This document shows, one piece after another, positions 35,226 to 56,542 of a DNA stretch of 64,000 bases. How positions within the stretch are numbered: the stretch's first letter is position 1; every line of letters begins with the position of its first letter. The stretch covers positions 1,727,704-1,791,703 of the forward strand of contig CP012158.1 of assembly GCA_001189275.1 (NCBI GenBank). The letters run 5' to 3'. The notes beneath the pieces are model-generated. The model saw nothing but the letters and a program-made list of their open reading frames with translations. It was not told the DNA's origin and made no database searches. The stretch comes from Pyrobaculum sp. WP30. Its GTDB lineage: Archaea; Thermoproteota; Thermoprotei; Thermoproteales; Thermoproteaceae. A program made the translations under genes and the position numbers.

Positions 35226-35293
35226 AAGTTCTGCTATGCAAGTAAGACTGACGGTAGTGCTGACCTCCCGATCATGTTACAAATAATTGAAAG

Positions 35294-35313
35294 CCTCGTC
35301 CTTTAGGGCGGGG
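35294..35313 (+). repeat. Left-end hairpin of the TnpB element
   Basis: CCTCGTCC-TTTA-GGGCGGGG folds into an 8-bp stem with two G-T (G-U) pairs. It mirrors the right-end stem CCCCGCCC/GGGCGGGG and is the type of structure recognised by HUH transposases. Confidence 0.6.
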
Positions 35314-35349
35314 GTTCGGTTCGTCAAAGTTTTTAGGGGTGGTGGGGAC

Positions 35350-36891
35350 ATGGAGTGTGTGAGGAGGGCTGTTGCTGTAGAGCTTGAGCACCCGCCGCCT
35401 GAGCTTTCCGCCATAGAGGAGCCGTACCACCGCATTGTGGAGGAAGTCGCGGCATACGTCGCAGAGAGGAGGACGCTGGAGAAGGAGAAATACGGCGAAC
35501 TGTACCGCCGTTTCAGAGAGTTGTACCCCATGCCCGCCCAACTGATCCAGCAGGCGATGAACCAAGGCGTAGAGATTGGCAAGTCGTTTCTAGAGGCAAA
35601 GAGAAACGGCCGAGTCCACAGACCCCGCCCCGAGGTTCGGCGGGTTTCGATAAGATTCGCCAAAGACAGCTGGAGTTATAAGAAAGCCATCAGCTCTGTA
35701 GCCCCCGTCCGGCTGGGGCTGTCCCTCCCCGGCGGGAGGAGAGAAATCTGGATTAAGCCCCACAGAAGGTTCTGGCTGTATTGGTGGAAAGTTCTTCGTA
35801 AAGAGGCTGAGCTGGCGTCCACGTTGGTGTTGAAGCGGAGGCGGAATAAGTGGTATGCGATATTCGTCTTGGACGTGGCTCCTGAAAGGAAGCCTCCGGC
35901 GGAGGTCGCCGCCTTCGACGTAAATGAGAACTGGATCGCAGTCGCCAGAGTGAGTCTCTTGTCGACTGTGGATAGAGTTGCCAGCTGGAACAGACAGTAC
36001 ATAAACCCCGCCGTCTACTCCATAAGGACGGACTTCGGCAGGCTTGCCAAGCGGTACGAGGCCGTCAGAAACGCAAAGCTGGAGGAGCTCAAGCACAGAT
36101 ATCCATACGCCGGGAGAGACGAGGATGAGCGGAGGCAGAACGTCGCAGATACAAGAGAATACAAGAAATTCGCGAGGAGACTTAGGGAGAGAAGGCGGAA
36201 GGAAGGCCGCATAAAGCAAGTCGTCCGCGAGGTGACGAAAAGCCCCGCCGTGATTATAACGGAGGAGCTTGGCAAAAACCCACAAGAGGAAATGATCGGC
36301 GTCGAGAAGAAGAAGGTGAAGAAAAGAGAGCTGAGGCATCGCGTCAAGCAGACACCGTTTAAGAAGCTGGTAAGAGCTGTGGAGGATAAGGCGAGGGAGA
36401 CCGGCTCCGCGGTCTTCTACGTCTCCAGCTTTAGAAACAGCAGGGTGTGCCCCATCCACTTCGCCAGGCTACAGAATGGGGATAGTTGGCATACTTTGCA
36501 CTGCCCCCATGGCCACGATGTTGACCGCGATCTTGCCGCTGTGTTGAACATGTTGTGGAAGATTACGCCAGAGGGCGCGGCCAAGGCCGTGTGGTGGGAT
36601 CTGAAAGACGTGAAAAAGAGACTGGAGAAGGGGAGAAGACTCGTGCCTAAGGAAGCTGTAAGGAGGAGAAATCCGCTTGTCACATGGCCCGTCGTACGCG
36701 CCGTCTGGACTTCGCTCATGGCGCTGAAGGCCGGCGACAAGTGGCCCGCAGTGCTGGCCCGGGCCGCCCCCATGAACCCCGCCCAAGGTGCCGATGAAGG
36801 CGGGACGAGGGCGCCGGTGAGCCGTCCAGGGGGCGGGAACCCCCGCCCTTCGGGGCGGGGAGGAGGTCAGAACTGTCAAAGTGCGATATGA
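35350..36891 (+). CDS. tnpB: TnpB RNA-guided nuclease (IS605 OrfB)
   Basis: A 513-residue protein. RuvC-like landmarks are the first aspartate in VAAFDVNENWIAVARV, the glutamate in AVIITEELGKN and the last aspartate in DVDRDLAAVLNM. The zinc-finger region is CPIHFARLQNG...LHCPHGHD, in which one C-x2-C pair is replaced by C-x2-H. KTLRHRV-like arginine-rich parts precede it. The 5'-most start at 35287 lies inside the left-end hairpin; ATG 35350, which starts MECVRRAVAVELEHPP, is the real candidate. The C-terminal tail is translated from the right-end hairpin, as usual for TnpB genes. Such proteins cut DNA guided by an RNA from the element's right end. Confidence 0.85.
   Translation: MECVRRAVAVELEHPPPELSAIEEPYHRIVEEVAAYVAERRTLEKEKYGELYRRFRELYPMPAQLIQQAMNQGVEIGKSFLEAKRNGRVHRPRPEVRRVSIRFAKDSWSYKKAISSVAPVRLGLSLPGGRREIWIKPHRRFWLYWWKVLRKEAELASTLVLKRRRNKWYAIFVLDVAPERKPPAEVAAFDVNENWIAVARVSLLSTVDRVASWNRQYINPAVYSIRTDFGRLAKRYEAVRNAKLEELKHRYPYAGRDEDERRQNVADTREYKKFARRLRERRRKEGRIKQVVREVTKSPAVIITEELGKNPQEEMIGVEKKKVKKRELRHRVKQTPFKKLVRAVEDKARETGSAVFYVSSFRNSRVCPIHFARLQNGDSWHTLHCPHGHDVDRDLAAVLNMLWKITPEGAAKAVWWDLKDVKKRLEKGRRLVPKEAVRRRNPLVTWPVVRAVWTSLMALKAGDKWPAVLARAAPMNPAQGADEGGTRAPVSRPGGGNPRPSGRGGGQNCQSAI
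36831..36860 (+). ncRNA. Putative guide (omega/reRNA) 3' structure at the element's right end
   Basis: CCCGCCC (36842-36848) can pair with the upstream GGGCGGG (36831-36837) or, as part of CCCCGCCC, with the downstream GGGCGGGG (36853-36860) across a TTCG tetraloop. The structure overlaps the last codons of tnpB, where the omega RNA scaffold of TnpB elements is normally encoded. The guide would start after about 36870. RNA not demonstrated. Confidence 0.5.
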
Positions 36892-37732: not shown

Positions 37733-37896
37733 CGCAAATCCACCAACAGAGAACGCTTGTGCTCCAGAGACATCCGTGAGCCAAACAGCCGACGCGCAAA
37801 ACCCGCCCCGTACTAGTGGGAGGAAAACTGGCATAATTGCCGACTACGCGCGAGCGCCCACTTGATTATTTATATAGGCCGACCTCAATAGATTAT

Positions 37897-38604
37897 ATGA
37901 GGAAGTATCTAAAGCGTTTTTTGTTCTTTTTGTTTCTGTTGGCTCTTGTGTTTTTGGCTTGGTCTTTTCTTGCCGCGCCGTGGGTCTGCCTTATTGGGGG
38001 TGACGTCGTCTGTTTCGGCGGCGCGGCTGAAGTGACCAGCTCTGTGTGGGGGCCGTGTAACTACACCGGCGCAGTGGAGATAATCGACGGGCCGCCCATC
38101 GACTGGTGGGGCGGCTTTAAATGCATTGCGGCTGGGCGTGCAGGCGGGAAGACATACGCCGTATTTATAAGAGAGGCTGTTGCAGACACGCTCACCGGCG
38201 ACCCGTTTAAAAGCGATGCAGAACGCGACCTCTGCTACTGCGCCAAAAAGAGGATAGTGCCCTGCATGTTTGCCAGAACCCTTGCGGCGTATATGCACGT
38301 CGGCATCCTCGTGGTGGATGTGGAAGAGGGCGTGGGCTACCTCTCCATCGGCTACGGGATGAGACCCTATCATCTCAACCACAGCCGCTTTATCTTCGGC
38401 GATGGCGTGTATCTCAACGTAGAAGGTTTTGAGACTCTGAGGTACATGGGCGGTTTAAAGGCCGCGGTAGGCGTCAAGCGGGAGATAATGGGCCCCCTCC
38501 TTGAGGGGTGCGCCTACCGCGTCAAAGTCAGGGTGGAGCCGGAGAAGCTCATGACCAGCCAACCACTGTACAACGCCACCGCAAGAGCCGTCAGAGTGAG
38601 ATGA
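37897..38604 (+). CDS. Secreted or membrane-anchored cysteine-containing protein
   Basis: A 235-residue protein with a basic start (MRKYLKRF) and one hydrophobic helix (about residues 7-28). The outside part has eight or more cysteines, including RDLCYCAKKRIVPCMF, suggesting disulfide bonds as is common in Pyrobaculum proteins. A TATTTATATAGG box lies about 26 nt before ATG 37897 and argues against the 5'-most ATG (37837). Family not recognised. Confidence 0.6.
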   Translation: MRKYLKRFLFFLFLLALVFLAWSFLAAPWVCLIGGDVVCFGGAAEVTSSVWGPCNYTGAVEIIDGPPIDWWGGFKCIAAGRAGGKTYAVFIREAVADTLTGDPFKSDAERDLCYCAKKRIVPCMFARTLAAYMHVGILVVDVEEGVGYLSIGYGMRPYHLNHSRFIFGDGVYLNVEGFETLRYMGGLKAAVGVKREIMGPLLEGCAYRVKVRVEPEKLMTSQPLYNATARAVRVR

Positions 38605-38713
38605 CGCGCACTCCCCAACACACACCTACCGAATACTGCACTCCTCTAAGGACAATTATCGCCTCTATTGACCGGATATATATTAAGCTCTGGTAGGTTT
38701 ACAACAAGATTTT

Positions 38714-39151
38714 TTGTCTATCACAGTGATATTTGTCTTTATCGTTGTAGATTCTTTTTTGCGTTTTTCTGCATCGTTCCCTCCTCGCGAAATTGTCGTC
38801 TATCCTTCTCGCGATAGCTTAATAGATTTTCACACTTTAGCTTTCAACCTTGTCTTACTTCTCCTCAGCTCACCTCCGTTGTTGTCTTTGCTTATGTTAC
38901 GCCGACCGAGCTCCGTGCGCGTACTCCTCCACGCGACATGCGTCCTCTACATACTCGTTGCACTGCCTCTGATGCTGAACTACTCGCCCCTACTCGTGTT
39001 GGTGATTTCCGGCGCCGCCCTTGTCGCCGGGTTGCCAGAGGCAATGGCGGTCGGCAGGTGGGCTAGATGGGTCTACTACGCCGCGCTTCTGCTTTGGCTT
39101 TTCCTCGTAGTCATGCCATGGACCTACTTCGTAGCTACGCTCATCTCATAG
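38714..39151 (+). CDS. Small membrane protein, family A paralogue
   Basis: A 145-residue protein with four membrane helices and the core PLLSLLMLRRPSSVRVLLHA shared with the protein at 37232. The start is uncertain: TTG 38714 is about 26 nt after an ATATATATTAAG box; GTG 38726 is possible. The gene ends 80 bp before the left copy of the pilin inverted repeat. Confidence 0.55.
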   Translation: MSITVIFVFIVVDSFLRFSASFPPREIVVYPSRDSLIDFHTLAFNLVLLLLSSPPLLSLLMLRRPSSVRVLLHATCVLYILVALPLMLNYSPLLVLVISGAALVAGLPEAMAVGRWARWVYYAALLLWLFLVVMPWTYFVATLIS

Positions 39152-39302
39152 CCTTCCGCCGTCAACACCCCCTCGTAGAGACATCGCTCTTGTCTGGTTG
39201 TGGTTTTCAGGTTTGGGGAAGCGGCGTCTTCGACGCTAACCACAACCTCAGAAACCCCAAGCATGTAGATATCTACCAAAATTAAAGAAATATTTTTCTG
39301 TG

Positions 39303-39434
39303 CCGCCGTGCCCCACTTTCATATGAAAAATATCTTTAAATTAGTAAAAACAAAACCCACATGAAAACCCGCCGTGCCCCACTTTCATATGAAAAACATC
39401 CTTAAATTAGTAAAAACAAAACCCACATGAAAAC
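39303..39434 (+). repeat. Two 66-bp tandem repeats carrying promoter and start codon
   Basis: Unit 1 (39303-39368) and unit 2 (39369-39434) differ at two positions. Each holds the TTAAATTAGTAAAAAC promoter-like box and an ATGAAAAC start about 25 nt later. The first ATG opens a 14-codon ORF ending in TAA; the second starts the pilin gene. A leader peptide or double promoter is possible. Confidence 0.85.
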
Positions 39435-39882
39435 CAAAATAAAAGGTCTCGAACCAGTAGTCGCCGCGGTGTTGCTAATAGTGGTGGCGGTGATAGGCGC
39501 GATGCTGGTGTACGTCTGGCTCACAGGCTACGTAACAAAAGCCACAAGCCAAGCCGAGTCAACGGCCACCTCAGAAAGGCTGAAAATAGAAGCCGCATCA
39601 TTCACATTTTACGACAACGGATCAGTCAGGCTTACACTCTACACGCGGAACATAGGCGGCGATGCCGTGAAGCTGAGGGGGCTCTACGTATTTAGGCCTG
39701 GATCACTCAACGCCCTCTGTTCAATTGGCATACCCGGCTTCCCCACGATAGATCCTGGGTACTACCGCGCAATATACAACATAAATCTGGATCGTTGCAA
39801 TATTGTACGTGGTAATGAATACGTGATTAAGGTAGTTACCCAGAAGGGTACTGAGTTCGCGATTACGGTCACCGCCACGTAA
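39427..39882 (+). CDS. Archaeal type IV pilin, left copy
   Basis: A 151-residue pilin. The class III signal KIKGLEPVVAAVLLIV has the basic-G|L-E-P cleavage pattern of prepilin peptidase and is followed by the hydrophobic assembly helix (residues 8-33). The rest is beta-rich. It matches the pilin at 46402-46848 at both ends but differs around residues 58-72 (FTFYDNGSVRLTLYT) and 115-130 (GFPTIDPGYYRAIYNINLDR). Two cysteines are conserved between copies. The gene lies alone, without downstream assembly genes. A T-rich terminator (about 39886-39900) follows. Confidence 0.85.
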   Translation: MKTKIKGLEPVVAAVLLIVVAVIGAMLVYVWLTGYVTKATSQAESTATSERLKIEAASFTFYDNGSVRLTLYTRNIGGDAVKLRGLYVFRPGSLNALCSIGIPGFPTIDPGYYRAIYNINLDRCNIVRGNEYVIKVVTQKGTEFAITVTAT

Positions 39883-39902
39883 AAAAATTCCTCTTTTTTC
39901 CT

Positions 39903-39978
39903 ATGTCTATTTCTTTTTTCCGGGGTTTGGACCTGGTGGTTGGCGCTCTTTTGCTTGTTATTGTGGTAGTTGGGGTCT
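39903..39978 (+). pseudogene. Truncated start of a second pilin-like gene
   Basis: MSISFFRGLDLVVGALLLVI and a few more residues match the start of the pilin-like gene at 46381, then homology stops at the inner repeat boundary and the frame runs into unrelated sequence. It marks the end of the duplicated cassette. Confidence 0.75.
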
Positions 39979-40005
39979 GTCGTCGGTGCACCACTCCCGC
40001 GGAGG

Positions 40006-40410
40006 CTACTCTGCCGAAGAGCCCCAGCCTCTGCGGCGTCTCAAAGATGGGGGAGTTGTCCTAATCTGGCCTCCGTCGTCATATCTCAAGACTGCTATAA
40101 CCTCTGCATTGATGCCCGTCACCTTCAATAGCCGGGCCGCAAGCTCGCCGCGGCCCCGATCAGTCGGGCGGAATTGGAGCTTGACCGCGTTTTCGCTCAG
40201 GTATACGTTATACTTCACGGCAACACCGCCCCCCGAAATGATCAAGTCGGCGGCTACATTGCCGCCGTCAGTCAACTTTACGCTACCGTCCAGAGACATG
40301 TGGGTGGTCGTAGGGGCGTCGCGGTTTCCGTGAGGACTCGCGGCATATGCGGTGGTATGCACATGCGCCCCGCCGCATAGTGACGAGCTTGGTGGAGGAG
40401 AGACTCGCAA
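40006..40410 (-). pseudogene. PaREP2b-like fragment
   Basis: The open frame contains GGGVAVKYNVYLSENAVKLQ, then FRPTDRGRGELAARLLKVTG and NAEVIAVLRYDDGGQIRTT, a pattern I associate with the PaREP2b family of Pyrobaculum. The ends look like junk, so this is an internal fragment of a larger gene rather than a complete protein. Confidence 0.5.
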
Positions 40411-40673
40411 GGCGGCACAAGAAAGGCATATACCTAATCAAGAGGGCGATAGAGACGGTTAAGAGTAAGGGCGATGGAGACGGCTGGTACATCAGAGCCT
40501 CAACGGTCGTGCTGGCGGCCGCGCGCGAGGAGCTCAGAAAAGCCCTGGCCGTGATTCATCAAGACAGCCCTTGCGAGGGGCTTGGTGGACGCCGGAGAGG
40601 CGGAGCGATGGGTGGAGAAGCTGGAGAGGGGAGTGGTGGCGTGGGAGGGTATGAAGTTCAAGGTGAGGCTTTG
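40347..40673 (+). pseudogene. PaREP2b-like fragment, frameshifted
   Basis: Plus-strand frame 1 reads KKGIYLIKRAIETVKSKG and GDGWYIRASTVVLAAAREEL with RKALAVI; after a frameshift near 40565 the next frame continues LARGLVDAGEAERWVEKLER and GVVAWEGMKFKVRL before a stop at 40673. These phrases fit the C-terminal part of PaREP2b proteins. It faces the minus-strand fragment next to it, so two decayed copies abut in opposite directions. Confidence 0.5.
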
Positions 40674-40813
40674 AGAGACGCGTTGGAGGTGAGCTGGTTA
40701 TTGTGTGGTGCTGTGTCCGAGGCGGCGCCTAGGAAAGAGGTTGGGGGAATTAAGTTGGTCTCGCCGCCACGGTGATTTGAGGTGAGTAAAAGCTATATAC
40801 TCCCTCACCCCGC

Positions 40814-41479
40814 GTGGACGTGGAGATTGTGGTTAAAGACGTCCATAAGTACTACGGCGAGTACCCGGCGCTCAGAGGCGTGACGCTGGAGGTGCCTAAG
40901 GGGATCTTCCATTGCATCCTCGGACCCTCGGGGTCGGGCAAGTCTACTCTCCTCCACATAATCGGCGGTGTCGACAAGCCGACGAAGGGCGAGGTGGTGG
41001 TGGCCGGAGTCAGGCTGAACGACCTAAGCGACGACCAGCTGGCTGAGTTCCGGAACAGAAACATCGGCTTCGTCTTCCAGCTCTTCTACCTCATCCCCCG
41101 CATGTCTATCTTAGAAAACGTCGAGCTTCCCCTGATCCTCCGCGGTGTCCCCAGGGAGGAGAGGCGGAGGCTGGCGCTTGAGGCCCTCCAGCTCGCCGGC
41201 CTAGGCCACGTGGACCCCAAGAAGAAGCCCACCCAGCTCTCAGGCGGTGAGCAACAACGCGTCGCCATAGCCAGGGCCATAGTCACCAAGCCCCGCGTGC
41301 TCCTGGCAGACGAGCCCACCGGAAACCTCGACAGCGCCACCGCCAAGGTGGTCATGGACACCTTCCTCAACCTCAAGAAGCAACTCGGCATAACCATCGT
41401 GATGGTCACCCACAACCTAGAGCTCCTCCCCTACTGCGACCGCCACGTAAGAATGAGAGACGGAAAAATCGTGGACTAG
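40814..41479 (+). CDS. ABC transporter ATP-binding protein (LolD/MacB type)
   Basis: A 221-residue ATPase. Walker A is [12 protein letters not shown], the Q-loop [20 protein letters not shown], the signature [15 protein letters not shown], Walker [14 protein letters not shown] and the switch histidine MVTHNLEL. The [17 protein letters not shown] segment is typical of the LolD/MacB/FtsE-like subfamily that drives lipoprotein or peptide export permeases. GTG 40814 follows a CTATATAC box by about 22 nt. No permease gene is adjacent; the gene ends 4 nt into the convergent KaiC-partner gene. Confidence 0.88.
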
Positions 41480-41757
41480 CCCCAAGCCTCCTGGGCCGTC
41501 AGATAGCGCAAAACTTGGTCCTGCGTCACGTTGCATCCGTTTTTCTTCAGCCAGTCGGTGAGGATGTTTATAACCAGCTCGGCGTTGTGTCTGCCGAGGG
41601 CTTTCTCCAGCACTTCGTATACCCGCCAAGGCTCCTCCACAAGGAAGTAGTCAAAAGGCTTCCCAAAGGCGGCTAAGACCCTGTAATGCACAAGAGTACG
41701 CAAAGCGAAGTTCAACGCGCCGTAGAACCTAACTAAGAGTTCTTTTGTGAGGCACAT
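41476..41757 (-). CDS. Small partner protein of a KaiC-like ATPase, paralogue
   Basis: A 93-residue paralogue of the protein at 26924-27211, sharing FGKPFDYFLVEEPWRVYEVL and GRHNAEL. The gene starts 1 nt after the restored stop of the KaiC-like gene at 41759, the same spacing as in the other pair. It is intact even though the ATPase gene upstream is frameshifted. Confidence 0.7.
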   Translation of the reverse strand: MCLTKELLVRFYGALNFALRTLVHYRVLAAFGKPFDYFLVEEPWRVYEVLEKALGRHNAELVINILTDWLKKNGCNVTQDQVLRYLTAQEAWG

Positions 41758-41758
41758 A

Positions 41759-42842
41759 TCAACACTTTATCTTCTCTCCTATCCTTCCCTGCGGCCCCCT
41801 TACGCCGATTACGCTCCTCTCTTCCATCTGTACAATGACGTCGAACAACATGTCGAGGTTGTGTAGATTTCTTAGCAACACCACCACAGCCCTGCCGCCT
41901 CTGGCCATCTGTAGCAGAATCCGCAACACCATATATAACACAGAGGGGCCGTACATCGTGGACAACGCCTCTAAACCTCTGATAAACACCACGTCGCGGT
42001 CTGTAGAGGCCACTGCGGCAAACAACTCCTCTACGTTCAAATCCACCTCTACCGCATCTACTCCAAACCGCTCTGCATATACCGCGCCGGCGCCCGATAC
42101 GGAGATGTAAACGGCGCCCCCCCCCCTCCTTTAGGGCGCTCGCCGCTTTGAGCATAAGCCAAGTCTTCCCTGCGCCCACTGGGCCGACGATTGCGTGAAG
42201 CAGACCCTTATAGACCCCGCCCACCGCCTCGTCTAGACATGTGCCGGTGCTCAACTGCTCCGCCGCAGTCTTCGCCGGGGCCTCAGGCGTTAAGAACACG
42301 ATGCCCCTTCCCTCTCTTATGATAAACGGCATGGAGTAGCCTGCCTTCCCGCCTCGTATTTTCCTCACCACCACCTCTCTCAACGCACCGTAGGGATACA
42401 CCTCATATAGCAACTCTATCACGTTATCCGCCACGTAGGCAACTTTAGGGGCCACATCTTTTTCAGCTGTCAAAAACACGTCGACTCCGCTCTGCTTAAC
42501 TGCGCGGTAAAGCACGTTGTGGATAATGTCAAGCCCTCCGCCCCACGCCAACACCTCAGTCACTGAGTCTATGACGAGGACCTCCGGACGTTCCCGCGCA
42601 ACGGCGTCTAGAAGCGTGCCGAAAAACGCCTCAGCCTCGGCCAACGGCGCCTCCCAAAACACAAGCCGTTCTCCGAAATCGTAGCCAAAAGAAGCCATGT
42701 TCCGGCGGAACGTCGCCTCGTCCTCAAATACAGAAACCCAAAACACCCTTTTATAGTTGTGGTAGGTGTACCACGCGGCAAAGGTCGTCTTTCCGGCGCC
42801 TGGGGGTCCATATACAAGAGAAACTCCCCGTAGCCTAAACAT
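41759..42842 (-). pseudogene. KaiC-like ATPase gene with frameshift at a G10 tract
   Basis: The N-terminal frame carries a first P-loop GPPGAGKTTFAAW, Walker B EVLVIDSVTEVL and a second P-loop GPVGAGKTWLMLK. At 42117-42126 (C10 on the plus strand, G10 in the gene) the frame is lost: GGG is followed by RRLHLRIG instead of the sensible AVYISVSGAGAVY. The other frame continues with VDAVEVDLNVEELFAAV and RDVVFIRGLEALST to KIKC and stop. One G fewer (or two more) in the tract restores a protein of about 360 residues. Either a sequencing artefact, slippage-controlled expression or a young pseudogene. Confidence 0.75.
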
Positions 42843-42906
42843 AAGCGCAGAATAATCGTTTTTTATAAATCTTCCGTTATATTTTACAGTTAGAATTTAA
42901 TTCGAA

Positions 42907-43692
42907 TTATATATTTGTCATAGAATCAAATATTAGGTAGAAGACGATCCCAACAATCGGCGTGTAGACTAGACCCATTAACATCATCAACGTCAAGGGG
43001 TCGATTCCGAGGCCCCCAACCTCTAGGTTGCCGAGTGGGCTGAAGGACAGCGCCACTATGTAAACCATGATGGGAAGCAACATCACTGCCACTACGAAGA
43101 TTTCAAACATAAGCGAGAGCGACCTCACCAGCGACTGCGCCTTTACCTGCTTCGTCCTTAGGGCCCAGTCCAGCCTGGCCAGGAGGGCTATGTCTATCCT
43201 CTGCGTAATCCTCGCCGCCTTTGTCAAAACCTCCACAGTCTCCCGGTAGGTGGGGCTCGGCGTCCTCTCTGCGCTGTTCCGCAGAGCCTCCTCCGGCGTG
43301 GCCCCCATGACGATCATCTCCCGCGCAGCCAGCGCCAGCTCCCTTGCGATGTATTTATCCTCCTCCACCTCTGCCAGCCGTGTCACGGCTCTGCCGAGGG
43401 GCACCTCCGCCGCGAGAAGAGGCAGAAGGACACCTAGAGTGTAGACGAAGTTGTTCTCAAAGTGGCTACGCCGCGCAGTGACTAGGTGGACGGGGTACAG
43501 CACAAGCCCGGCGAAGGCTAGAAGCGCCGCCATGAGGCCGAAGGCGGCGCTGGCTAGGGGACCCAGGAGGAGGAGCCCAGCCACGCCGGCTGCCGTCCCG
43601 GCGGCTAAGGGCACCAGGGCGAGGGCTGCCATGTACCTCCGGTAAGAGAAAGCCAGCCCGCTCTGCCGGTAAAGCTCGTAAAACAGCCTCAT
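42907..43692 (-). CDS. Type IV pilus TadC-like membrane protein 2
   Basis: A 261-residue T2SF/TadC-domain protein with membrane helices at about residues 20-60, 190-212 and 235-257. The cytosolic central part (RLAEVEEDKYIARELALAAR to LDWALRTKQVKAQS) is the T2SF helix bundle that contacts the ATPase. Its ATG overlaps the stop of the ATPase gene (ATGA). Together with the protein at 45140 it makes up the two-part assembly platform seen in crenarchaeal pili. Confidence 0.78.
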   Translation of the reverse strand: MRLFYELYRQSGLAFSYRRYMAALALVPLAAGTAAGVAGLLLLGPLASAAFGLMAALLAFAGLVLYPVHLVTARRSHFENNFVYTLGVLLPLLAAEVPLGRAVTRLAEVEEDKYIARELALAAREMIVMGATPEEALRNSAERTPSPTYRETVEVLTKAARITQRIDIALLARLDWALRTKQVKAQSLVRSLSLMFEIFVVAVMLLPIMVYIVALSFSPLGNLEVGGLGIDPLTLMMLMGLVYTPIVGIVFYLIFDSMTNI

Positions 43693-45167
43693 ATCTTTCC
43701 GGCCTTGGCCGCCTCCAGCGCGGCCTCGGGGTTTAGGTGGTACTGTGTGAACACCTTAGCGACGATATACGGCGTGGAGTAGCCCCGCTCCACCATCGCC
43801 GCGATCAGCTCCCTACGCCTCTTGTACTCGGCCTTGAGGAAGTCCAGCGACACAAACCGCGTCCTTGCGATGGTCTCTAGATGTCTGCTCTCTTCTACAG
43901 GCTCCAACACGTCTTTCTCCGGGTTCCACCGGAAGATGTAGTGGAGGCGGGGTCTGCCGCCTCGCGCCACGCCCATGTTTTCGGCGATCTCCACCACTCT
44001 ACGCACTATGCTGTTCCCCACCTTGACCCTCAAGACCCTGACGAAGACGTGGGCGAGGCCGACCAGCATAGGCGGCACGTTCATGGGCCGAGTCAAGAGA
44101 CGCCTCACCGCATCTTCGATAGTTTCGGCGTGTATCGTCGTGGCGCCGGTGTGGCCCGAGCCGAAGGTCTGGAACAACACATACGCCTCCTCCCCCCTCA
44201 CCTCCCCCATCACTACGTAGTCGGGCCGCGACCTCAAGGCTATGGCCAAGAGGTCGAAGGCTGAAACGTCTCTGACCGCTTCTGCCCTAGACGGCCTCGT
44301 GACTAAGGCCTGCCAGTGCTCATGGACGATGTTGATCTCCCTAGTGTCCTCAATAGTGAGGATTTTGGCATCCGGCCTGATTAGGTACAGCAGAGCGTTT
44401 AGGAGGGTGGTCTTCCCCGCGCCGGTGGGGCCCACGATCACGATGTTGCGGCCGTAGTCCAGCATAAGCCAGAGGTAGGCGACAGCGTCCGCCGAGATCG
44501 TGCCCATCTTCACCATATCCACAAGCGTGATGGGCACCACGAAGTATTTCCTAATCACGAAGGAAGGCCCCCTGTAAGAGATGGGCGGCGCCGCCAATTC
44601 GACACGGAAGCCCTCAGGGAGCGTCCCCTCCAAGATGGGGTCGGCGTAGGAGACAGACTTCCCCACCAGCGCCGAAACCCTCTGCACGTAGCCGTCGAGG
44701 TCGTCGGGAGACAGCACGACGTCGGTCTTAAGAGATTCCCACCGGCTGTGCCATACGTAGACGTGCCCAGGCCCGTCCACGTGGACGTCCTCTATGTAGG
44801 GGTCCCGCACCAGGGGGTCAAGCACCCCGTACCCCAGGAAGTCCCGCCGCAGGTAGTACATCATCTTCCCCCAAGTCCTCTCATCGAGCTTAATCTTAAA
44901 CTCGGCCACCGCCCTCTTCGCCAGCTCATCGAGGTACTCCGCCCGCCTCTCCCGCGCAAGCCTCAAACCACCGTCCCGCGCCTCACCCACGTTTTGTATA
45001 GCCCGCTTGAGCCGTGCCAGCGTCTCTACCTCTTCCCTAGACAGGGGAGGCTCCACAGCCCTATACCGCCTAAAGCCCTCTTTATCAACGTATACTACTG
45101 CACGTACGAGATCTGAGATCTCGTACTGGTCTAGGACCTTCAAAACTTCATCCACTGCGGAGCCCAT
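43689..45167 (-). CDS. Type IV pilus assembly ATPase (TadA/GspE family)
   Basis: A 492-residue secretion ATPase that powers pilus assembly. Landmarks are the N-terminal GVLDPLVRDPYIEDVHVDGP domain, Walker A IVGPTGAGKTTLLNAL, the Asp box ILTIEDTREI, Walker B PDYVVMGEVRGEEAYV and the His box GHTGATTIHAET. The C-terminal 60 residues form a helical tail. It overlaps both adjacent TadC-like genes, indicating a tightly coupled operon. Confidence 0.9.
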   Translation of the reverse strand: MGSAVDEVLKVLDQYEISDLVRAVVYVDKEGFRRYRAVEPPLSREEVETLARLKRAIQNVGEARDGGLRLARERRAEYLDELAKRAVAEFKIKLDERTWGKMMYYLRRDFLGYGVLDPLVRDPYIEDVHVDGPGHVYVWHSRWESLKTDVVLSPDDLDGYVQRVSALVGKSVSYADPILEGTLPEGFRVELAAPPISYRGPSFVIRKYFVVPITLVDMVKMGTISADAVAYLWLMLDYGRNIVIVGPTGAGKTTLLNALLYLIRPDAKILTIEDTREINIVHEHWQALVTRPSRAEAVRDVSAFDLLAIALRSRPDYVVMGEVRGEEAYVLFQTFGSGHTGATTIHAETIEDAVRRLLTRPMNVPPMLVGLAHVFVRVLRVKVGNSIVRRVVEIAENMGVARGGRPRLHYIFRWNPEKDVLEPVEESRHLETIARTRFVSLDFLKAEYKRRRELIAAMVERGYSTPYIVAKVFTQYHLNPEAALEAAKAGKI

Positions 45168-45910
45168 AGCCCCACCGCCAGTATTACCGCCGCCGCGCCC
45201 GCATGAACGAGACCCGCCCGCGGGCCCCCGTACACCACCCTGCCCACGATTAGCCCGCCCACGACTGCACTTACGAAGCCGGATATATAAAGAACGCGGA
45301 TGACATCCCCCTGCTCCAGAACCACCGGCTCGATGCCTTGTTGCGTCGGGGCTGAGGCTGTGAGCTGGGCAAGCTGCGGCAGAAGCATGTAGACCAAGAC
45401 GTCAGCCAGCACCGCGAAGACGGCCACCACTGCGTAGAAAAGAGCCACGTAGGGCCTGAGCTGAGAAGCCACCGCCTGCCGGAACTCCACCACTGTGGCG
45501 AAGCTCCGCGCCGCCACGTCCAGCACCTCCGGAAACCTCGCCCCCGAACGCGCCGCTTCAGTCACAATGAGAGCAAACCTCCTAAAGTTAGGCGAGGGTA
45601 TCTCCTTAGCCACCCTCCACAGCGCCTCCTCCACCGTGAGCCCGCCTACCTCAGTCAGCGACAGAACCTGCCTAAGCACATCTCTCATAGGCCTAAGCGC
45701 CGGCGCCGCCGCAGACTCCACAGCCCCCTTCAAGCTAAGCCCCGCAGAAACTGCGTCAGAAAGCACACGCAAAACCTGCGGAATCTGCCCCTCAAGCCTA
45801 AACACATACACAGCCCTCCTCCACGCCCCAACACCCACCAACGCCAACGCCAACCCCGCCGCCACCCCCACAACAAACACCAAATCAAACATATCAAAAA
45901 CCTGCCACAT
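45140..45910 (-). CDS. Type IV pilus TadC-like membrane protein 1
   Basis: A 256-residue T2SF-domain protein: an N-terminal membrane helix (FDLVFVVGVAAGLALALVG), a cytosolic T2SF bundle with the phrase AVSAGLSLKGAVESAA and FRRFALIVTEAARSGARFPE, then three helices near the C-terminus. ATG 45910 is 1 nt after the stop of the second pilin gene; ATG 45892 is also possible. It overlaps the ATPase gene by 28 nt. Confidence 0.78.
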   Translation of the reverse strand: MWQVFDMFDLVFVVGVAAGLALALVGVGAWRRAVYVFRLEGQIPQVLRVLSDAVSAGLSLKGAVESAAAPALRPMRDVLRQVLSLTEVGGLTVEEALWRVAKEIPSPNFRRFALIVTEAARSGARFPEVLDVAARSFATVVEFRQAVASQLRPYVALFYAVVAVFAVLADVLVYMLLPQLAQLTASAPTQQGIEPVVLEQGDVIRVLYISGFVSAVVGGLIVGRVVYGGPRAGLVHAGAAAVILAVGLWAPQWMKF

Positions 45911-45911
45911 A

Positions 45912-46381
45912 TTAACTAGCAAACACAACAGACGCCTCCGCCCCGCGGGCAGTCACCAACTTAACCACATACACAGCCCCAGACACAACAGCCTCCCCAC
46001 ACCCAGCCACTACACCACCACCAACGTCAGACGGCGGTCCCACCGGCATCCAAACATCAAGATACTCCAAACGCACCGGCCCCACAACCCAAGGAAGACC
46101 ATCAGCAAAACACACAACGTCGCCGTTGTATACATACACCGTACGCGGCAACACAGCGCCCCCACCCAAATTACGAACCCACAGAAAAACCCTCACACCC
46201 CCACCCAAGTTAGTGACATAGCCCCCTCGATCTTCAACACATCCGGGGCAAACTCCGCAGAAGGCGCCGCTTTCCCCAAACCTAAAAACCACATCCATAC
46301 AAGAAAGACCCCAACTACCACAATAACAAGCAAAAGAGCGCCAACCACCAGGTCCAAACCCCGGAAAAAAGAAATAGACAT
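45912..46381 (-). pseudogene. Second pilin-like gene, frameshifted
   Basis: Frame 1 starts MSISFFRGLDLVVGALLLVI, a class III signal (R-G|L-D) plus hydrophobic helix, and runs to KIEGAMSLTWVGV and stop. Frame 2 continues GGGVRVFLWVRNLGGGAVLP, then TVYVYNGDVVCFADG, to VVFAS. Adding one G to the GGGTGGGGG stretch (near 46193-46206) gives an uninterrupted pilin of about 155 residues. It lies 20 nt downstream of the first pilin and directly before the TadC-like gene. Confidence 0.7.
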
Positions 46382-46401
46382 AGGAAAAAAGAGGAATTTT
46401 T

Positions 46402-46848
46402 TTACGTGGCGGTGACCGTAATCGCGAACTCAGTACCCTTCTGGGTAACTACCTTAATCACGTATTCATTACCACGTACAATATTGCAACTAGTCACATT
46501 TATGTTGTATATTGGGCGGTAGGACCCAGGATCTATCGTGGGGGTGCCGGGTATGCCAATTGAACAGAGGGCGTTGAGTGATCCAGGCCTAAATACGTAG
46601 AGCCCCCTCAGCTTCACGGCGTCGCCGCCTATGTTCCGCACGTAGAGTGTAAGCACGCCTGTTGTTCCGTTGAGTGATGCGGCTTCTATTTTCAGCCTTT
46701 CTGAGGTGGCCGTTGACTCGGCTTGGCTTGTGGCTTTTGTTACGTAGCCTGTGAGCCAGACGTACACCAGCATCGCGCCTATCACCGCCACCACTATTAG
46801 CAACACCGCGGCGACTACTGGTTCGAGACCTTTTATTTTGGTTTTCAT
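46402..46848 (-). CDS. Archaeal type IV pilin, right copy (operon head)
   Basis: A 148-residue pilin, first gene of the pilus operon. The signal and assembly helix (KIKGLEPVVAAVLLIV and onward) and the C-terminal 20 residues (EYVIKVVTQKGTEFAITVTA) are identical to the left copy. Differences are confined to LNGTTGVLTLYV near residue 58 and TPTIDPGSYRPIYNINVTS near 115. It is likely the major pilus subunit. The promoter is duplicated in tandem upstream (46841-46972). Confidence 0.87.
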   Translation of the reverse strand: MKTKIKGLEPVVAAVLLIVVAVIGAMLVYVWLTGYVTKATSQAESTATSERLKIEAASLNGTTGVLTLYVRNIGGDAVKLRGLYVFRPGSLNALCSIGIPGTPTIDPGSYRPIYNINVTSCNIVRGNEYVIKVVTQKGTEFAITVTAT

Positions 46849-46972
46849 GTGGGTTTTGTTTTTACTAATTTAAGGATGTTTTTCATATGAAAGTGGGGCA
46901 CGGCGGGTTTTCATGTGGGTTTTGTTTTTACTAATTTAAGGATGTTTTTCATATGAAAGTGGGGCACGGCGG
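46841..46972 (-). repeat. Two 66-bp tandem promoter repeats of the pilus operon
   Basis: Same tandem repeat as at 39303-39434, here on the minus strand. Both units carry AAGGATG in place of the AAAGATA variant found in unit 1 of the left copy. Each unit contains a TTAAATTAG box and an ATG about 25 nt downstream. Confidence 0.85.
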
Positions 46973-47010
46973 CACAGAAAAATATTTCTTTAATTTTGGT
47001 AGATATCTAC

Positions 47011-47412
47011 ATGCTTGGGGTTTCTGAGGTTGTGGTTAGCGTCCTCCTTTTGCTAGTTACGGTACTGCTGGCGGCCACAGTCGTGTCGTTTTTCTTCAAC
47101 GTGGTGTATAGCCCCGCCCAGTCCCAGTTTGTGCTTGAGGGCGCGAAGCCGCTGTGTACGGCGCGGGTGGTGGCCGTGGCGGACAACGGGAGCGGGTACG
47201 CGAGGATCTATGTCTACAACAGGGGCAACTCCTTATGCATATTTGACACGGTCTACGCAGTATATAACGGCGCTGTGGTGGACAGGGGCAGTATATATCT
47301 GCGTGTACAACCCGGCCAGGTGGGCTTCAACGACACCACCATCCGCTACATGCCGGGCTGGGCGTACCGCCTGACTGGTCCAAGAGGCGAAGTTGCAGAG
47401 GGGAGGCCATGA
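47011..47412 (+). CDS. Pilin-like protein, divergent from the pilus operon
   Basis: A 133-residue protein. MLGVSEVVVSVLLLLVTVLL resembles a class III signal (G|V-S-E) plus assembly helix; the rest is a small beta domain with two cysteines (KPLCTARV and NSLCIFD). ATG 47011 is about 26 nt after an AAATATTTCTTTAA box. The first 11 codons lie inside the inverted repeat. It overlaps the next gene by 4 nt and may be a minor pilin of the same structure. Confidence 0.7.
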   Translation: MLGVSEVVVSVLLLLVTVLLAATVVSFFFNVVYSPAQSQFVLEGAKPLCTARVVAVADNGSGYARIYVYNRGNSLCIFDTVYAVYNGAVVDRGSIYLRVQPGQVGFNDTTIRYMPGWAYRLTGPRGEVAEGRP

Positions 47413-48881
47413 GGGGTCTCTCGACGGTGGCGGCCTTTGTCATGTTCCTTACGGCGTTTGCTGTGGTGATGTTTTCAGTATTTTACTTCTACAACGCACT
47501 CCGGGAGACCACGCAGAGGGGCGTGGAGACTATATACTCCGCCGTTACGCACGACGGCTCCACCGGCATAAGCTTCAACGGGACGATATGTAACTCAACG
47601 GGCGGACGCTACATATTTTACATAGTGACAGACAAGGCTGGCCGCGTGGTGTACAACGGGTCCGGGCCTCCTCCCTGTCCCCCCGCCAGGTGGGGGCTCT
47701 ACACCTACAGGGCCGTGCGGAGGGACAGCGGCTTAGACGTCGCCTTGGCCGCCGTAGGCAACCTCTCGCTGTCTTTCTCTGCAAACAGTTCTATTGCGGT
47801 GGTGAACGACTACAACCGAAGCGCCGCGTTTAAGATAAGGGCTCTGCTGGTTAACCCCAACGGGGCCTATGCCCTCTTGACAAACATCACAACAAACATC
47901 ACAACGACTCCGGCGGCCGACGGCTTTACTTGTGCACCCTCTGTGCTTAGGGTGGATAAGCCTCTCCTGATCCCGCCCGGCGGCTCGCTGGCCGTAGATA
48001 TGGGCGCTGTTGCTTGCAACGCCACGGACGCCTATCTATATGCCCAGGGGGCTCCGCCGGTGTCGCTGACAGTAACCGGCGCGGCGTATTACAACGGCGT
48101 AATGGTTGCCAACGCCTCCCAGCCCGTCGCAAGCATCGCCGGGGCGTCCTCTAAGCCGGGCAACTTCACGGCATACGGCGGGAGGTGCAAGGTCGGCTAC
48201 TTCTCCGGCGACCCGCCTCGGTACTACGTCCTGCTCAGCGGGGCCTCCCCAGTGGCGCGGGGCGCCGTCGCCGAAACTGACGGGGGCTATGCAGTTGTGC
48301 CGTGTCCCGCCTCCAGCGGGTTCTTCCGGTACAGGATCGTCACGGCGTCGGGTGCCGTCGTGGAGGTGCCGGTGGGCGTGGGGCGGGTCTTGGCCTGGGC
48401 CGAGAGCAACATGACAGTAGCATATGTCAACGGCATCGGGCAGAGCGTATCCTTCGACCTCTACCTACGCTTCACGAACCCCAACGCGGGCTACACAGCC
48501 CTAAACTTCACCTACAGGCTGATATACGATGAGCGGCTCCTCAACTGCACCCCCAATGACGGAAGCGGCACCCTCACGCTCCAGCCAAGCGAGACCAGGG
48601 CGATCTACGTCGCCACCCACCGATGCGTTGTGCTGGATGAGTTCGACGAGGCTAACATCGCTGTTGATATTACAGCCACCTACACCGGCGGCGGCTACAC
48701 CGCTACGCTGTATCGAGGCGTGGTGGGCATGCCCAGCTTCGCCGGGGCCCCCAGCTGGGTTGTGCTTAAGATACTGTGGGGTAGCGGGAAAGTGGTCGCC
48801 AACCCGGGCTACAGCGCCTTGCAACTAGCCTACCGCAAATCTCTGGCGACGTTGAGGTGGGCGCCCGTGGCAAGGCCTTAG
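47409..48881 (+). CDS. Large pilin-like surface protein, N-terminal part before TAG
   Basis: A 490-residue secreted protein. It starts MRGLSTVAAFVMFLTAFAVV, a class III-type signal (R-G|L-S) with a hydrophobic helix, followed by repeated beta domains rich in N-glycosylation sequons and paired cysteines. The phrase LLVNPNGAYALLTN and the later LRFTNPNAGYTALN are similar and suggest repeated domains. The frame ends in TAG at 48879-48881, but the next 705 codons are open in the same frame. It may be a pilus-tip adhesin or a surface-layer protein (inference). Confidence 0.65.
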   Translation: MRGLSTVAAFVMFLTAFAVVMFSVFYFYNALRETTQRGVETIYSAVTHDGSTGISFNGTICNSTGGRYIFYIVTDKAGRVVYNGSGPPPCPPARWGLYTYRAVRRDSGLDVALAAVGNLSLSFSANSSIAVVNDYNRSAAFKIRALLVNPNGAYALLTNITTNITTTPAADGFTCAPSVLRVDKPLLIPPGGSLAVDMGAVACNATDAYLYAQGAPPVSLTVTGAAYYNGVMVANASQPVASIAGASSKPGNFTAYGGRCKVGYFSGDPPRYYVLLSGASPVARGAVAETDGGYAVVPCPASSGFFRYRIVTASGAVVEVPVGVGRVLAWAESNMTVAYVNGIGQSVSFDLYLRFTNPNAGYTALNFTYRLIYDERLLNCTPNDGSGTLTLQPSETRAIYVATHRCVVLDEFDEANIAVDITATYTGGGYTATLYRGVVGMPSFAGAPSWVVLKILWGSGKVVANPGYSALQLAYRKSLATLRWAPVARP

Positions 48882-50996
48882 CCGGCGTGCCCCCGCACTC
48901 TTGTCTACGTCAACGAGTCGCTGTTTCCGCTTCTCTCCGCCAGCTGGGCCATTGCTGGAATCTACAACGTCACGACGCTCACCATGAAGGTGTTCCCTGG
49001 CTGGCCCGAGGACTACGTGCCTGCGACGCTGGCCCCCACCCAGCCGCCGCAGTCGCTTTCGCTTCGCAGAACCAGCTTCTTAGGCGCCGGCCTCTATTCG
49101 GTGTATCTCGGCGGCCTTCTACAATTTAACTACTCCGCACCGGGTCCAGGTCGAGCCGTTACGCTTCCGGCTGTGTTGAGATGGTTGACGACTACCTCGG
49201 CGGCTTACACAGTCGTTGCTAACGCCACGGTGCCTACGGTATGTACTTACCCGTTGCTCAGCTTCACGGCGGTGCCGATGAATAACCTCCTACGTCAAAC
49301 CTACGCATGTGGCGCTTCGCAACTATATGATGACTACAGCAATTACGCTACAACCATCTACTGCAACGCAACCGACTTTTCGAGGTCTGTACCCCATAGG
49401 ACGTATACAAGAGACGCAAGTATCAGTTTAGCGAGGGCGCCGAAGTACCGCGGCACGACGGCGACTGCGCCCTCCTTGTTACTAAATATAACTAGGGACG
49501 GCGGCATAGCTGTGTTTTATATAGATGTAGCCAGTTGGCTCGGCAGGGTGTCTGCCTCAGCTGGCTTCTCTGTGTGGATATATCCTGAAAAGAAACCTGA
49601 CGGAAAGCACTGGTACTGGGTAAGCTTTTTCATCGACATAGATGGAGACGGTAAGCCAGATAGAGAGGTTATTTACTATGCGAGAGGCGGCGGCTACGTC
49701 GCCGTGGGTAGCTACTTAGGATTCACGACAAAGACAGAGGTGAGAGGAACCTTCGGAGTTAAGGCGGATAGATGGAGGCAGTTTCAACTCTCCTCCATAT
49801 ATCCCTCCGGCTACTTAGTGGGGGTGGCGTTAGCTGTTCAGGGCAAAAGCGATGCGGATGCGTATTGGGACGACGTGAAGATATGTCCAGTTTCCTACTT
49901 CACCAACGTCCCCTACATCTCTGTGACGTTTGACGGCTGGACCTCCACCGGCGTGTACATAGATGCACAGACCAGCCCTAGCACGCCGCCTTCCTTAGTT
50001 ACCGAAGTAGACGCCAGCGACGCCACGGGTACCCCCTCAGCGGACTACGGCTACGCGTCGGCCATATATAACATAACCATGTGGGCACAGTACATGAACA
50101 GGCCTTGGCCTGTGCCTGCCTACGGCACCTCTATCTCTGTGTGGGGGAGGTATGTGAGAGATGCCGGCGACGCTCAGAACAACGTGGCTTACCTCTCCAT
50201 AGGCGTAGATACAAACGGCGACGGGCAGGTGGACAAGGAATACATCATATACCGATACGACACTGCAGGTGGAAGTGGCGTAATAATCTCAATGTATTTT
50301 GACGACCCTAACACAGGCGACCCCGTGGTGGTCTGTACCGTGAGCAACGCCGGCGTCTGCACGCCGGCAGATCCGCGTTTCGTGGTTGTCAACGCCGGCT
50401 CTATGGCCAGCGGCAACAACTACCAGTGGAGCTATACCCTGTACGAACAAGGCGCCGTGTTGGCGGTGGCGCTTGTAGCTGTAGACGCCACAGGATATCG
50501 CGACGGCGCGGCAGACGACTTCTGGGTGTATTGGGACGACTTGACTATTGAATACAGCGCGTGTCCCCCGCCTACCGGCTGGAACGCGGCTGGTAGCTAC
50601 GTGTGGCAGTCTAACAACTATCTGCTGGTTACTGGCTCGGCAACGGCGTATATGCCGCTTATCACCGCGCCTACCCGCGCCTTGACTTACGTGGCTAACT
50701 TCACCGGCGTGGGGACGTATGCAGTTTTCGATTCTTCGCTAGGCGTGATATTTGGCGTTTCTGCCAGCGGTAGCTTGTTTACAGCGCTTTGCGGCGGCGG
50801 GTCTACGCCGCTTGGCTCTCTGCCGGCGGCGAGATATGTGGAGCTCAGGCCGCTGAGCAACTTCGGCGACATAATAATACGGGATCAATACGGCGCGATA
50901 TTAGCCAGATACGGTTGCAGATACACAACCACCCCGCAGTACGTGGGGTTCAGAGGCGGACTGCTGAGGGTGTACTTGGTAGAGGCTTGGGGGTAG
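48882..50996 (+). CDS. In-frame continuation of the large surface protein
   Basis: About 704 residues after the TAG in the same frame; the first internal ATG is at 48984. Two tandem domains each contain an EF-hand-like loop, FIDIDGDGKPDREVIYYA and GVDTNGDGQVDKEYIIYRYD, and end in a tryptophan-aspartate phrase (AYWDDVKI and VYWDDLTIEY). A C-terminal domain ends RGGLLRVYLVEAWG. The calcium-loop and beta-sandwich pattern suits a glycan- or surface-binding protein. Without signal or start, it would be expressed only by readthrough or after correction of the sequence. Confidence 0.6.
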   Translation, partial: PACPRTLVYVNESLFPLLSASWAIAGIYNVTTLTMKVFPGWPEDYVPATLAPTQPPQSLSLRRTSFLGAGLYSVYLGGLLQFNYSAPGPGRAVTLPAVLRWLTTTSAAYTVVANATVPTVCTYPLLSFTAVPMNNLLRQTYACGASQLYDDYSNYATTIYCNATDFSRSVPHRTYTRDASISLARAPKYRGTTATAPSLLLNITRDGGIAVFYIDVASWLGRVSASAGFSVWIYPEKKPDGKHWYWVSFFIDIDGDGKPDREVIYYARGGGYVAVGSYLGFTTKTEVRGTFGVKADRWRQFQLSSIYPSGYLVGVALAVQGKSDADAYWDDVKICPVSYFTNVPYISVTFDGWTSTGVYIDAQTSPSTPPSLVTEVDASDATGTPSADYGYASAIYNITMWAQYMNRPWPVPAYGTSISVWGRYVRDAGDAQNNVAYLSIGVDTNGDGQVDKEYIIYRYDTAGGSGVIISMYFDDPNTGDPVVVCTVSNAGVCTPADPRFVVVNAGSMASGNNYQWSYTLYEQGAVLAVALVAVDATGYRDGAADDFWVYWDDLTIEYSACPPPTGWNAAGSYVWQSNNYLLVTGSATAYMPLITAPTRALTYVANFTGVGTYAVFDSSLGVIFGVSASGSLFTALCGGGSTPLGSLPAARYVELRPLSNFGDIIIRDQYGAILARYGCRYTTTPQYVGFRGGLLRVYLVEAWG

Positions 50997-51158: not shown

Positions 51159-51710
51159 ATGGTTGTAGAGCTTGTGGAGAGGCCTCTTCCTAGGCCCTCT
51201 GACGAGGGCTATATCGAGGCTAGGCTTCTAGAGGCTTTGGGCGAGGCTCGTCTCGCTCTCCGCTTCTTGGAGGAGGGGTTGACGCGTAACGCCGCGTGTA
51301 AGGCCTTCCAAGCCTGGAAAGCACTTTTAGCCGCCTTGTTGCGGCTTGAGCTGGGCAAGCTTAAGGCCCTGGCCAGGACCGAGGAAGAGAAGGGGTGGCT
51401 TGAGTCTAAGGCCGTGCCGCGGGTTCCCACGTCTAGGATGGTTGTTCTTTCGCTTCTGCTTGAGAAGGCAGGTCATGAAGCTGTTGCGGCGTGGACCTCC
51501 CTAGCTCTTGACCTACACGACTACCAATATCACGGCCCAGATCCAGACATGGCTCTTTCCAAGTTCAGAAACAGGGAGGAGGCGGCGGAGTACACCCGGC
51601 GGCTCGCCGCAGAGGTGGCTAGGCGGGTAGAGGCCCTTAGAGGGCGCGTTAAATGGACCGACGAGTTGGAAAAGGCGCTGAGGGAGGTGAGGGAGGCCTT
51701 GGCGCGTTGA
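51159..51710 (+). CDS. PaREP1-family protein
   Basis: A 183-residue helical protein. It has the family pattern VERPLPRPSDEGYIEARLLE, ALGEARLALRFLEEGLTRNA, and KAFQAWKALLAALLRLELGK, then LHDYQYHGPDPDMALSKF. PaREP1 belongs, as I recall, to the HEPN-like group of helical proteins. A TTTTAAAAAG box lies about 25 nt before the ATG. It stands just upstream of a P-loop ATPase gene; the same pair occurs at 61585-63213. Confidence 0.85.
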   Translation: MVVELVERPLPRPSDEGYIEARLLEALGEARLALRFLEEGLTRNAACKAFQAWKALLAALLRLELGKLKALARTEEEKGWLESKAVPRVPTSRMVVLSLLLEKAGHEAVAAWTSLALDLHDYQYHGPDPDMALSKFRNREEAAEYTRRLAAEVARRVEALRGRVKWTDELEKALREVREALAR

Positions 51711-51786
51711 AAGCGCTGGAGCGTCTCCGGCTACCGGCGTTACAACTTCGGCGCAACTGCGGCTCTCAATAGCTACTGTCTGTGCT

Positions 51787-51816
51787 AAAGCTTTATTTAA
51801 AGTCTATTTAAAAGAC
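51787..51816 (+). promoter_or_regulatory. Promoter of the first PaREP1-linked ATPase
   Basis: AAAGCTTTATTTAAAG followed by a second ATTTAAAAGAC lies directly before GTG 51817. The same element with two base changes occurs at 61555-61584 before the second ATPase, although the DNA further upstream differs. Confidence 0.65.
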
Positions 51817-56047: not shown

Positions 56048-56473
56048 GTGGGTCCGTGGGCGTCGGTGGAGGGCATTGGGCCCGTTGTTGTTGCTAATAG
56101 TAGCGGCAGTGATAGGCGCGGTGTTGGTGCACCTCTGGTTCGCAGGCTACGTAGCAGAAGCCAAGCCGAGTCAATGGCCGCCTCAGAAAGGCTGAAGATA
56201 GAAGCCGCATCACTCACGGCTGGCACAGTCGGATCCGGCGCGGCCGTGTTGCGGCTCTACGTATGCAACGTGGACAGAGCCGCTGTTGACGTGGTGGACG
56301 TCTATGTGTATAGGCCGGGAACTGCAGGTCTCCGGCCTCTACTTTCCCCACAGTCCGGCGAGCATGCGCAGTGCACAAGCCGCCCGGGTGCGGGATCTAC
56401 CCGGGATACGACTATGATTAAGCCCGTCACGCTGAAGGGCACCGGGTTGGTGGCCGCCGTCACGGCATCGTGA
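56048..56473 (+). pseudogene. Third pilin gene, decayed by two frameshifts
   Basis: Fragments match the pilins at 39427 and 46848: SVEGIGPVVVA (frame 1), then LLIVAAVIGAVLVHLWFAGY with VAEA (frame 2), then QAESMAASERLKIEAASLTA and VLRLYVCNVDRAAVDVV (frame 1 again). The end ITLKGTGLVAAVTAS-like tail aligns with the pilin C-terminus. Two indels separate the parts. It lacks the 66-bp promoter repeats. Confidence 0.75.
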
Positions 56474-56542
56474 GGGCTACGGCACATCTCCCCCAGACCC
56501 GCCTCTAACCCCAAATTTATTAGGTGAAGTCGACGTCTAGGC

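Follow-up and report, generated by a model that had tools for sequence, protein, structure and literature searches.

An inverted pair of complete pilin alleles at the type IV pilus locus of Pyrobaculum sp. WP30 and its possible diversification by recombination

Bacterial pathogens are well known to escape immunity by varying their surface pilins through recombination. In Moraxella the dedicated recombinase Piv inverts a coding segment behind one promoter, so that two pilin variants are made, and in Neisseria the variation leaves the conserved N-terminal helix of the pilin untouched. Two reports on Neisseria (PMC6796969, PMC3547852) describe the pilE/pilS variation as gene conversion between duplicate sequences. 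Within the archaeal genus Pyrobaculum, inversions at the GluDH and RAMP/paREP regions of P. oguniense occur in 17% and 18% of a population (PMC3558965), and archaeal inversions via homologous recombination have been reviewed (PMC8371274). Here we describe a type IV pilus (T4P) locus of Pyrobaculum sp. WP30, contained in a window of 64,000 base pairs (bp) (C1:1727704-1791703 of a 1,993,257-bp single-contig genome), in which two oppositely oriented arms, each with a complete major pilin gene (PilL on the left, PilR on the right), flank the pilus assembly genes. With a probability of roughly 0.55, we read this locus as a recombining pair of complete pilin alleles that are homogenised by gene conversion, while two patches within them are under diversifying selection.

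Neither an array of donors nor a recombinase close by was found, so the locus appears to be neither a Neisseria nor a Moraxella system; it may act to some degree as a Neisseria system reduced to two copies would. It resembles Neisseria in the probable gene conversion between duplicate pilin sequences; unlike Neisseria, it has no silent array of 5'-truncated donors, only one pair of copies that are both complete and promoter-bearing, together with one degenerate remnant that has no matching patch. With Moraxella it shares two pilin variants and a potentially invertible segment, but each pilin has its own promoters, an inversion would not put another coding sequence behind a promoter, and no recombinase was found among the 20 open reading frames (ORFs) scanned between 34.4 and 52.8 kilobases (kb), where only a TnpB-like protein (35287-36891) turned up. 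The P. oguniense inversions, in the same genus, accompany inverted duplicate genes of 1215 bp (96.6% identity) and 1123 bp (98.8%); they differ from the present case in that they span 23-172 kb and involve metabolic and CRISPR/paREP genes, whereas here the repeat is 0.75 kb long and carries a pilin with selected patches. The ends of a third P. oguniense inversion (C8) share just 85 bp, at 73%, and no long repeat. The clade 4B T4P of the Thermoproteales (Makarova et al., PMC4858521) normally have a pair of PilA-type pilins in each locus, and these pili and that of P. calidifontis (PDB 8fk7) share with the present locus a single assembly ATPase, a pair of TadC-like proteins, PilA-type pilins and genes for large surface proteins; the relatives have one full-length major pilin, and the duplication in inverted arms is unique to the present genome. 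The literature searched held no comparable example of crenarchaeal pilin switching, as the original prediction for this DNA had supposed.

The inverted arms and their differences

A repeat search divided the arms into two blocks, 39232-39604/46671-47043 (373 nucleotides (nt), 99%) and 39623-39981/46303-46661 (359 nt, 96%), separated by a 9-bp insertion or deletion (indel). Aligned as a whole, the left arm (39232-39981, plus strand) and the right arm (47043-46303, minus strand) are 96% identical across 750 columns, a resemblance for which chance is excluded by far, and their longest identical run is 265 bp (permutation p=0.0003). A blastn search of the whole genome found these two full copies only (100% and 96% over 750 bp) and a degenerate 129-bp match at 56089-56217 of the window. 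Within each arm lie a tandem pair of 66-bp promoter/start units and a complete pilin gene. The neighbouring genes are represented by their opening codons, those of the divergent pilin-3 and 25-26 of pilin-2. The near identity and opposite orientation of the segments, and their common content of tandem promoters, complete pilin and starts of both neighbours, had been predicted correctly, as the alignment and the ORFs confirm. The further claim that only the right copy has complete neighbours applies to pilin-3, but the right pilin-2 (46381-45912) is itself frameshifted, and the left copy begins not at 39232, as had been proposed, but at 39186, where the alignment and the paralogous flanks place the start of the insert.

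True differences between the arms are confined to 39331, 39335, 39601-39644 (patch A), 39663 and 39739-39793 (patch B); the mismatch at 39979 already belongs to the target site. Outside the two patches there are only two promoter changes and one silent change. The pilin proteins are 93% identical (151 and 148 amino acids), and every substituted codon except one changes the amino acid; an indel of three codons comes in addition. Nonsynonymous divergence (dN) between PilL and PilR is 0.065 and synonymous divergence (dS) 0.012, for a dN/dS of about 5.6 (Fisher p=0.011).

Origin of the left copy and exchange between the arms

Among 11 genus and 19 family genomes searched with the pilin, two full copies occur only in the present genome (G000), and relatives with the locus have a single full-length copy of the major pilin, at the right-arm position. 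The gene matching 31827-32849 lies ~30-320 bp from an ABC transporter gene in the genomes G004 and G005 and 8 kb from it here, and the left arm sits inside this lineage-specific 8-kb insert, between 32849 and 40814. Because the single pilin of the relatives occupies the right-arm place and the left arm lies in a lineage insert, the left copy is judged to be derived and confined to the lineage of the present genome, and the 6.3-kb segment between the arms is judged to stand, as assembled, in its ancestral orientation. This comparison of related Pyrobaculum genomes, which the original prediction had proposed as a check, bears out the conservation of the right locus and yields no relative with a second copy.

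The sequences that flank the left copy, 37902-39185 and 39976-40067, adjoin each other at C1:841996-843347 (83% and 90% identity), and shorter contiguous versions of the joined flanks occur near C1:22731-22867. By this alignment C1:841996-843347 is the empty form of an intergenic repeated unit, and the insert is 39186-39981. The insert corresponds to a source at 47043-46257 that has been circularly permuted to start at 46302; the rotated alignment has 759 identities, 24 mismatches and 17 gaps, as against 722, 19 and 101 for the unrotated one. Its permuted 46 bp are about 87-89% identical to 46302-46257 on the minus strand (the genome match for 39188-39231 is C1:1773963-1774007(-)), and a short TC/TCT at the insertion junction, read by eye from the alignments, is common to source and target. 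The anatomy shows the insertion of a copied piece: 0.79 kb of DNA (pilin-3 start, promoters, major pilin and pilin-2 start) was copied ~7 kb away, in inverted orientation, into the repeated intergenic unit. The simplest account of the permutation, which we infer, would be a small DNA circle opened at 46303/46304, and an alternative route would be copying out of a former tandem duplication.

After the insertion, homologous recombination between the inverted arms would repeatedly homogenise them by gene conversion. The permuted piece, which has no in-register partner in the right arm, was used as an internal clock. It differs from the right pilin-2 by ~6 events in 45 bp (~13% divergence), whereas the adjacent in-register start of pilin-2 (39904-39978), equally functionless on the left, has none in 75 (Fisher p=0.002 against the permuted piece) and all the non-functional in-register sequence of the left side none in 167 (Fisher p=7e-5). 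Silent sites of the pilin have changed at ~1.3/114 and the promoter region at 2/124. In this small sample the in-register duplicates resemble each other more closely than does sequence of the same age that is unable to pair. Because the permuted piece is ~13% diverged while its in-register neighbours are identical though equally useless, gene conversion between the arms, rather than pure recency, is the probable explanation of the low in-register divergence, subject to the smallness of the sample.

The alternative that comes closest to accounting for the same observations is a recent duplication followed by neofunctionalisation, by which a young left pilin would be co-expressed and co-assembled under positive selection and the arms would be alike through their youth, with no recombination between them. 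The low dS of the pilins, the lack of the second copy in any other family genome examined and the normality of two PilA-type pilins per locus in the clade 4B pili are all in keeping with such a history, but it is made unlikely by the disparity between the permuted piece and the 167 unchanged positions next to it. More doubtful still is an origin of the left copy in the pilin DNA of another strain with a different allele, inserted ectopically, so that the patches would represent imported allelic polymorphism. Neither patch has a donor in the genome (a genome-wide search for patch A of either copy, at <=3 mismatches, found only itself), and the piece of pilin-2 on the left departs from the resident gene and is closer to that of G009 at two sites; yet the arms are without the silent differences seen in the permuted piece, and conversion would still be required to remove them.

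A third, degenerate pilin copy in the window (56089-56474) has a 7-bp deletion and an open frame from the frameshift to the stop. It was considered as a donor and rejected, since its variable region matches neither patch.

Several points weigh against a recombining pair of alleles. The permuted control is only ~45 bp long, and the left-copy state that G009 shares at two of its sites means that part of the change occurred in the right pilin-2, which may evolve fast or be decaying, so that the case for conversion would be weakened. Patch A is possibly the product of one block event, in which case dN/dS overcounts the independent changes, and patches of this kind could also arise from a recent duplication under very strong selection or through the import of DNA from a different strain. 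The genes for the KaiC-like ATPase and pilin-2 are frameshifted in the assembly, and the pilus may be impaired unless these are sequencing errors.

The pilin surface and the potentially invertible segment

In an alignment of the genus the patches coincide with hypervariable columns, and the N-terminal helix is nearly invariant. The predicted fold of the two window pilins (predicted local distance difference test score 73, moderate confidence) places the patches in or beside turns of a beta-rich head. They encode loops of this predicted immunoglobulin-like head, which are expected to lie at the surface of the pilus, and would have been kept or driven apart by diversifying selection. PilL has one fewer N-glycosylation sequon than PilR (NGS64 only, as against NGT60 and NVT117). 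The T4P of P. arsenaticum is made of a different pilin; it bears a single N-glycan and is bound to the virus PFV2, perhaps by a direct contact of the pilin (PMC7347861). Escape from viruses would be a reasonable cause of the divergence of the patches, and the benefit to the cell would be a varied pilus surface with varied N-glycan sites, plausibly directed against pilus-binding viruses. A fuller scheme of crenarchaeal pilin diversification, in which the alleles are continually exchanged, inversion of the operon is a by-product and viruses keep the patches and the N-glycan site different, is advanced here as a tentative proposal.

Both pilins can, to judge from the same complete promoters and start codon in each arm, be expressed, and the picture of a silent cassette and an expressed site is not supported. 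The idea that gene conversion moves variants into an expressed site survives in that past exchange is supported (6/45 against 0/167), but not in its notion of an expressed site. The cell would hold two expressible pilin alleles that exchange patches, and resolution of the exchange by crossover would invert the 6.3-kb assembly segment. Recombination between arms of this size is expected because the P. oguniense inversions accompany repeats of 1.1-1.2 kb, and the arms, like those repeats, are long and near-identical; an inversion between them is plausible. A crossover in the ~370-bp stretch 5' of the patches would leave each pilin with its present downstream genes, one between the patches would produce mosaics, and PilL would come to lead the assembly operon only through one in the 185-bp stretch 3' of the patches. 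The predicted placement of the operon behind the left pilin is permitted by the geometry of the arms, but only under this last condition.

By the anatomy of the arms an inversion would be no on/off switch, since each pilin retains its complete promoters within its own arm. An invertible switch that swaps the pilin at an expressed site is consequently a poor candidate: the arm geometry and the population inversions of P. oguniense speak for it, but neither pilin would be turned on or off, the crossovers that alter linkage are limited to the 3' stretch and in part to that between the patches, no recombinase lies in the adjacent ORFs scanned, and the assembled orientation appears to be the ancestral one. 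A repeat of this length may mislead short-read assembly, and the inner 6.3-kb orientation needs spanning reads, but an assembly artefact is very improbable: both arms are bounded by unique sequence and have patches of their own, a clean empty site corresponds to the left insert, and the genome is a single contig of 99.84% completeness.

The pilus locus, its surroundings and its significance

The minus strand carries, in order from the right arm, PilR, the frameshifted pilin-2, a TadC-like protein, a TadA/FlaI-like ATPase, a second TadC-like protein and a KaiC-like ATPase; pilin-3 and two large surface proteins follow rightward in the divergent direction (Table 1). PilR matches the flagellar-like archaeal T4P of P. 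calidifontis both by sequence (8fk7, E=1.4e-37) and by fold. Pfam matches in the locus are T2SSE, two of T2SSF, and Pilin_N, for which pilin-3 scores 26.0 bits and the major pilins 24.9 and 20.9, below the cut-off of 25.2; the surface proteins had no match in Pfam/NCBIfam scans. With an assembly ATPase, two TadC-like proteins and PilA-type pilins present, the locus fits, by gene content, the clade 4B T4P of the Thermoproteales.

Table 1. Features of the pilus locus and of the two pilin arms (positions in the window)
Feature	Position	Strand	Remarks or basis
Permuted piece of left insert (pilin-2 codons ~27-41)	39186..39231	+	out of register with right arm; matches 46302-46257 (-)
Left inverted arm	39232..39981	+	in-register copy of 47043-46303
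Two tandem 66-bp promoter/start units, left	39303..39434	+	distal unit differs by 2 T's (39331, 39335)
Left type IV pilin PilL, 151 amino acids	39427..39882	+	complete, own promoters, monocistronic; ORF and family evidence
Patch A in PilL	39601..39644	+	includes 9-bp indel relative to right
Patch B in PilL	39739..39793	+	8 substitutions, all replacement
Truncated pilin-2 start in left arm	39904..39978	+	identical to right arm
ABC transporter ATPase	40814..41479	+	conserved pilus-locus neighbour in relatives
KaiC/RecA-superfamily ATPase	41759..42842	-	frameshifted at C10/G10 tract (42117-42126)
TadC/T2SSF-like pilus platform protein 2	42907..43692	-	
T2SSE/TadA/FlaI-like pilus assembly ATPase	43689..45167	-	
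TadC/T2SSF-like pilus platform protein 1	45140..45928	-	
Pilin-2	45912..46381	-	frameshifted in G-rich stretch near 46214
Right inverted arm	46303..47043	-	ancestral locus
Right type IV pilin PilR, 148 amino acids	46402..46848	-	heads assembly operon; 8fk7 homologue
Two tandem 66-bp promoter/start units, right	46840..46971	-	identical to each other
Divergent pilin-3, minor pilin-like	47011..47412	+	complete on right, left arm holds first codons only; Pfam Pilin_N, synteny
Two large surface/adhesin-like proteins (47409-48881, 48984-50996)	47409..50996	+	conserved in relatives
Degenerate third pilin copy	56089..56474	+	no start, frameshifted; 84% identical only in conserved helix region

The operon of the right-arm pilin is syntenic in five other Pyrobaculum genomes (G002, G003, G004, G005 and G009), except that the pilin-3 module is flipped in G005 (L019 11225-13542, together with the surface proteins), several have no pilin-2, or none that was recognised, and in G002 no ABC gene was found close to the locus. 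The two surface genes form a single fused ORF in some relatives. Decayed pilus loci are found in G001 (L043; a truncated ATPase and no pilin) and G006 (L022; remnants of a pilin and ATPase only). The KaiC-like homologue has an unbroken frame in G004 and others, and the C10 tract of the present gene, G10 on the coding strand, is a candidate for either slipped-strand phase variation or sequencing error. The pilin-2 counterpart of G009 (L018 ~9380-9844) is also frameshifted at G runs (G8). Long G/C runs lie to the right of the pilus locus at 57296-57308 (13), 57797-57804 (8) and 58417-58424 (8).

The 8-kb lineage insert to the left of the pilin arm also contains the TnpB/Cas12f-like protein at 35287-36891, which has a Cas12f1-like TNB domain. 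A pair of genes at 37837-39151 for unknown membrane proteins (L079, L080) recurs at C1:841996-843257 (83%) and C1:263267-264494 (73%), and represents a family that is specific to the lineage, has expanded and matches nothing in Pfam. Beside the left arm, the sequence at 40100-40475 is, by comparison with paralogous units at C1:22300-23500, 1573300-1574200 and 1935800-1938000, inverted relative to what surrounds it. Direct repeats on the right side of the window comprise two ATPase_2 genes (79%; 51776-52809 and 61544-62577) and three PaREP1-like genes (68-72%; 51160-51683, 53410-53929 and 62654-63178).

The locus offers a test case: long-read sequencing can count separately the exchanges between the arms, the inversions and the shuffling of patches, and there are Pyrobaculum viruses that bind pili. 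Should the exchange of pilin alleles take place as proposed, in a hyperthermophilic archaeon that faces viruses and no immune system, this would point to viruses as a sufficient cause of pilin variation, and the organism would plausibly possess a natural means of varying its pilus, a structure that viruses use for attachment.

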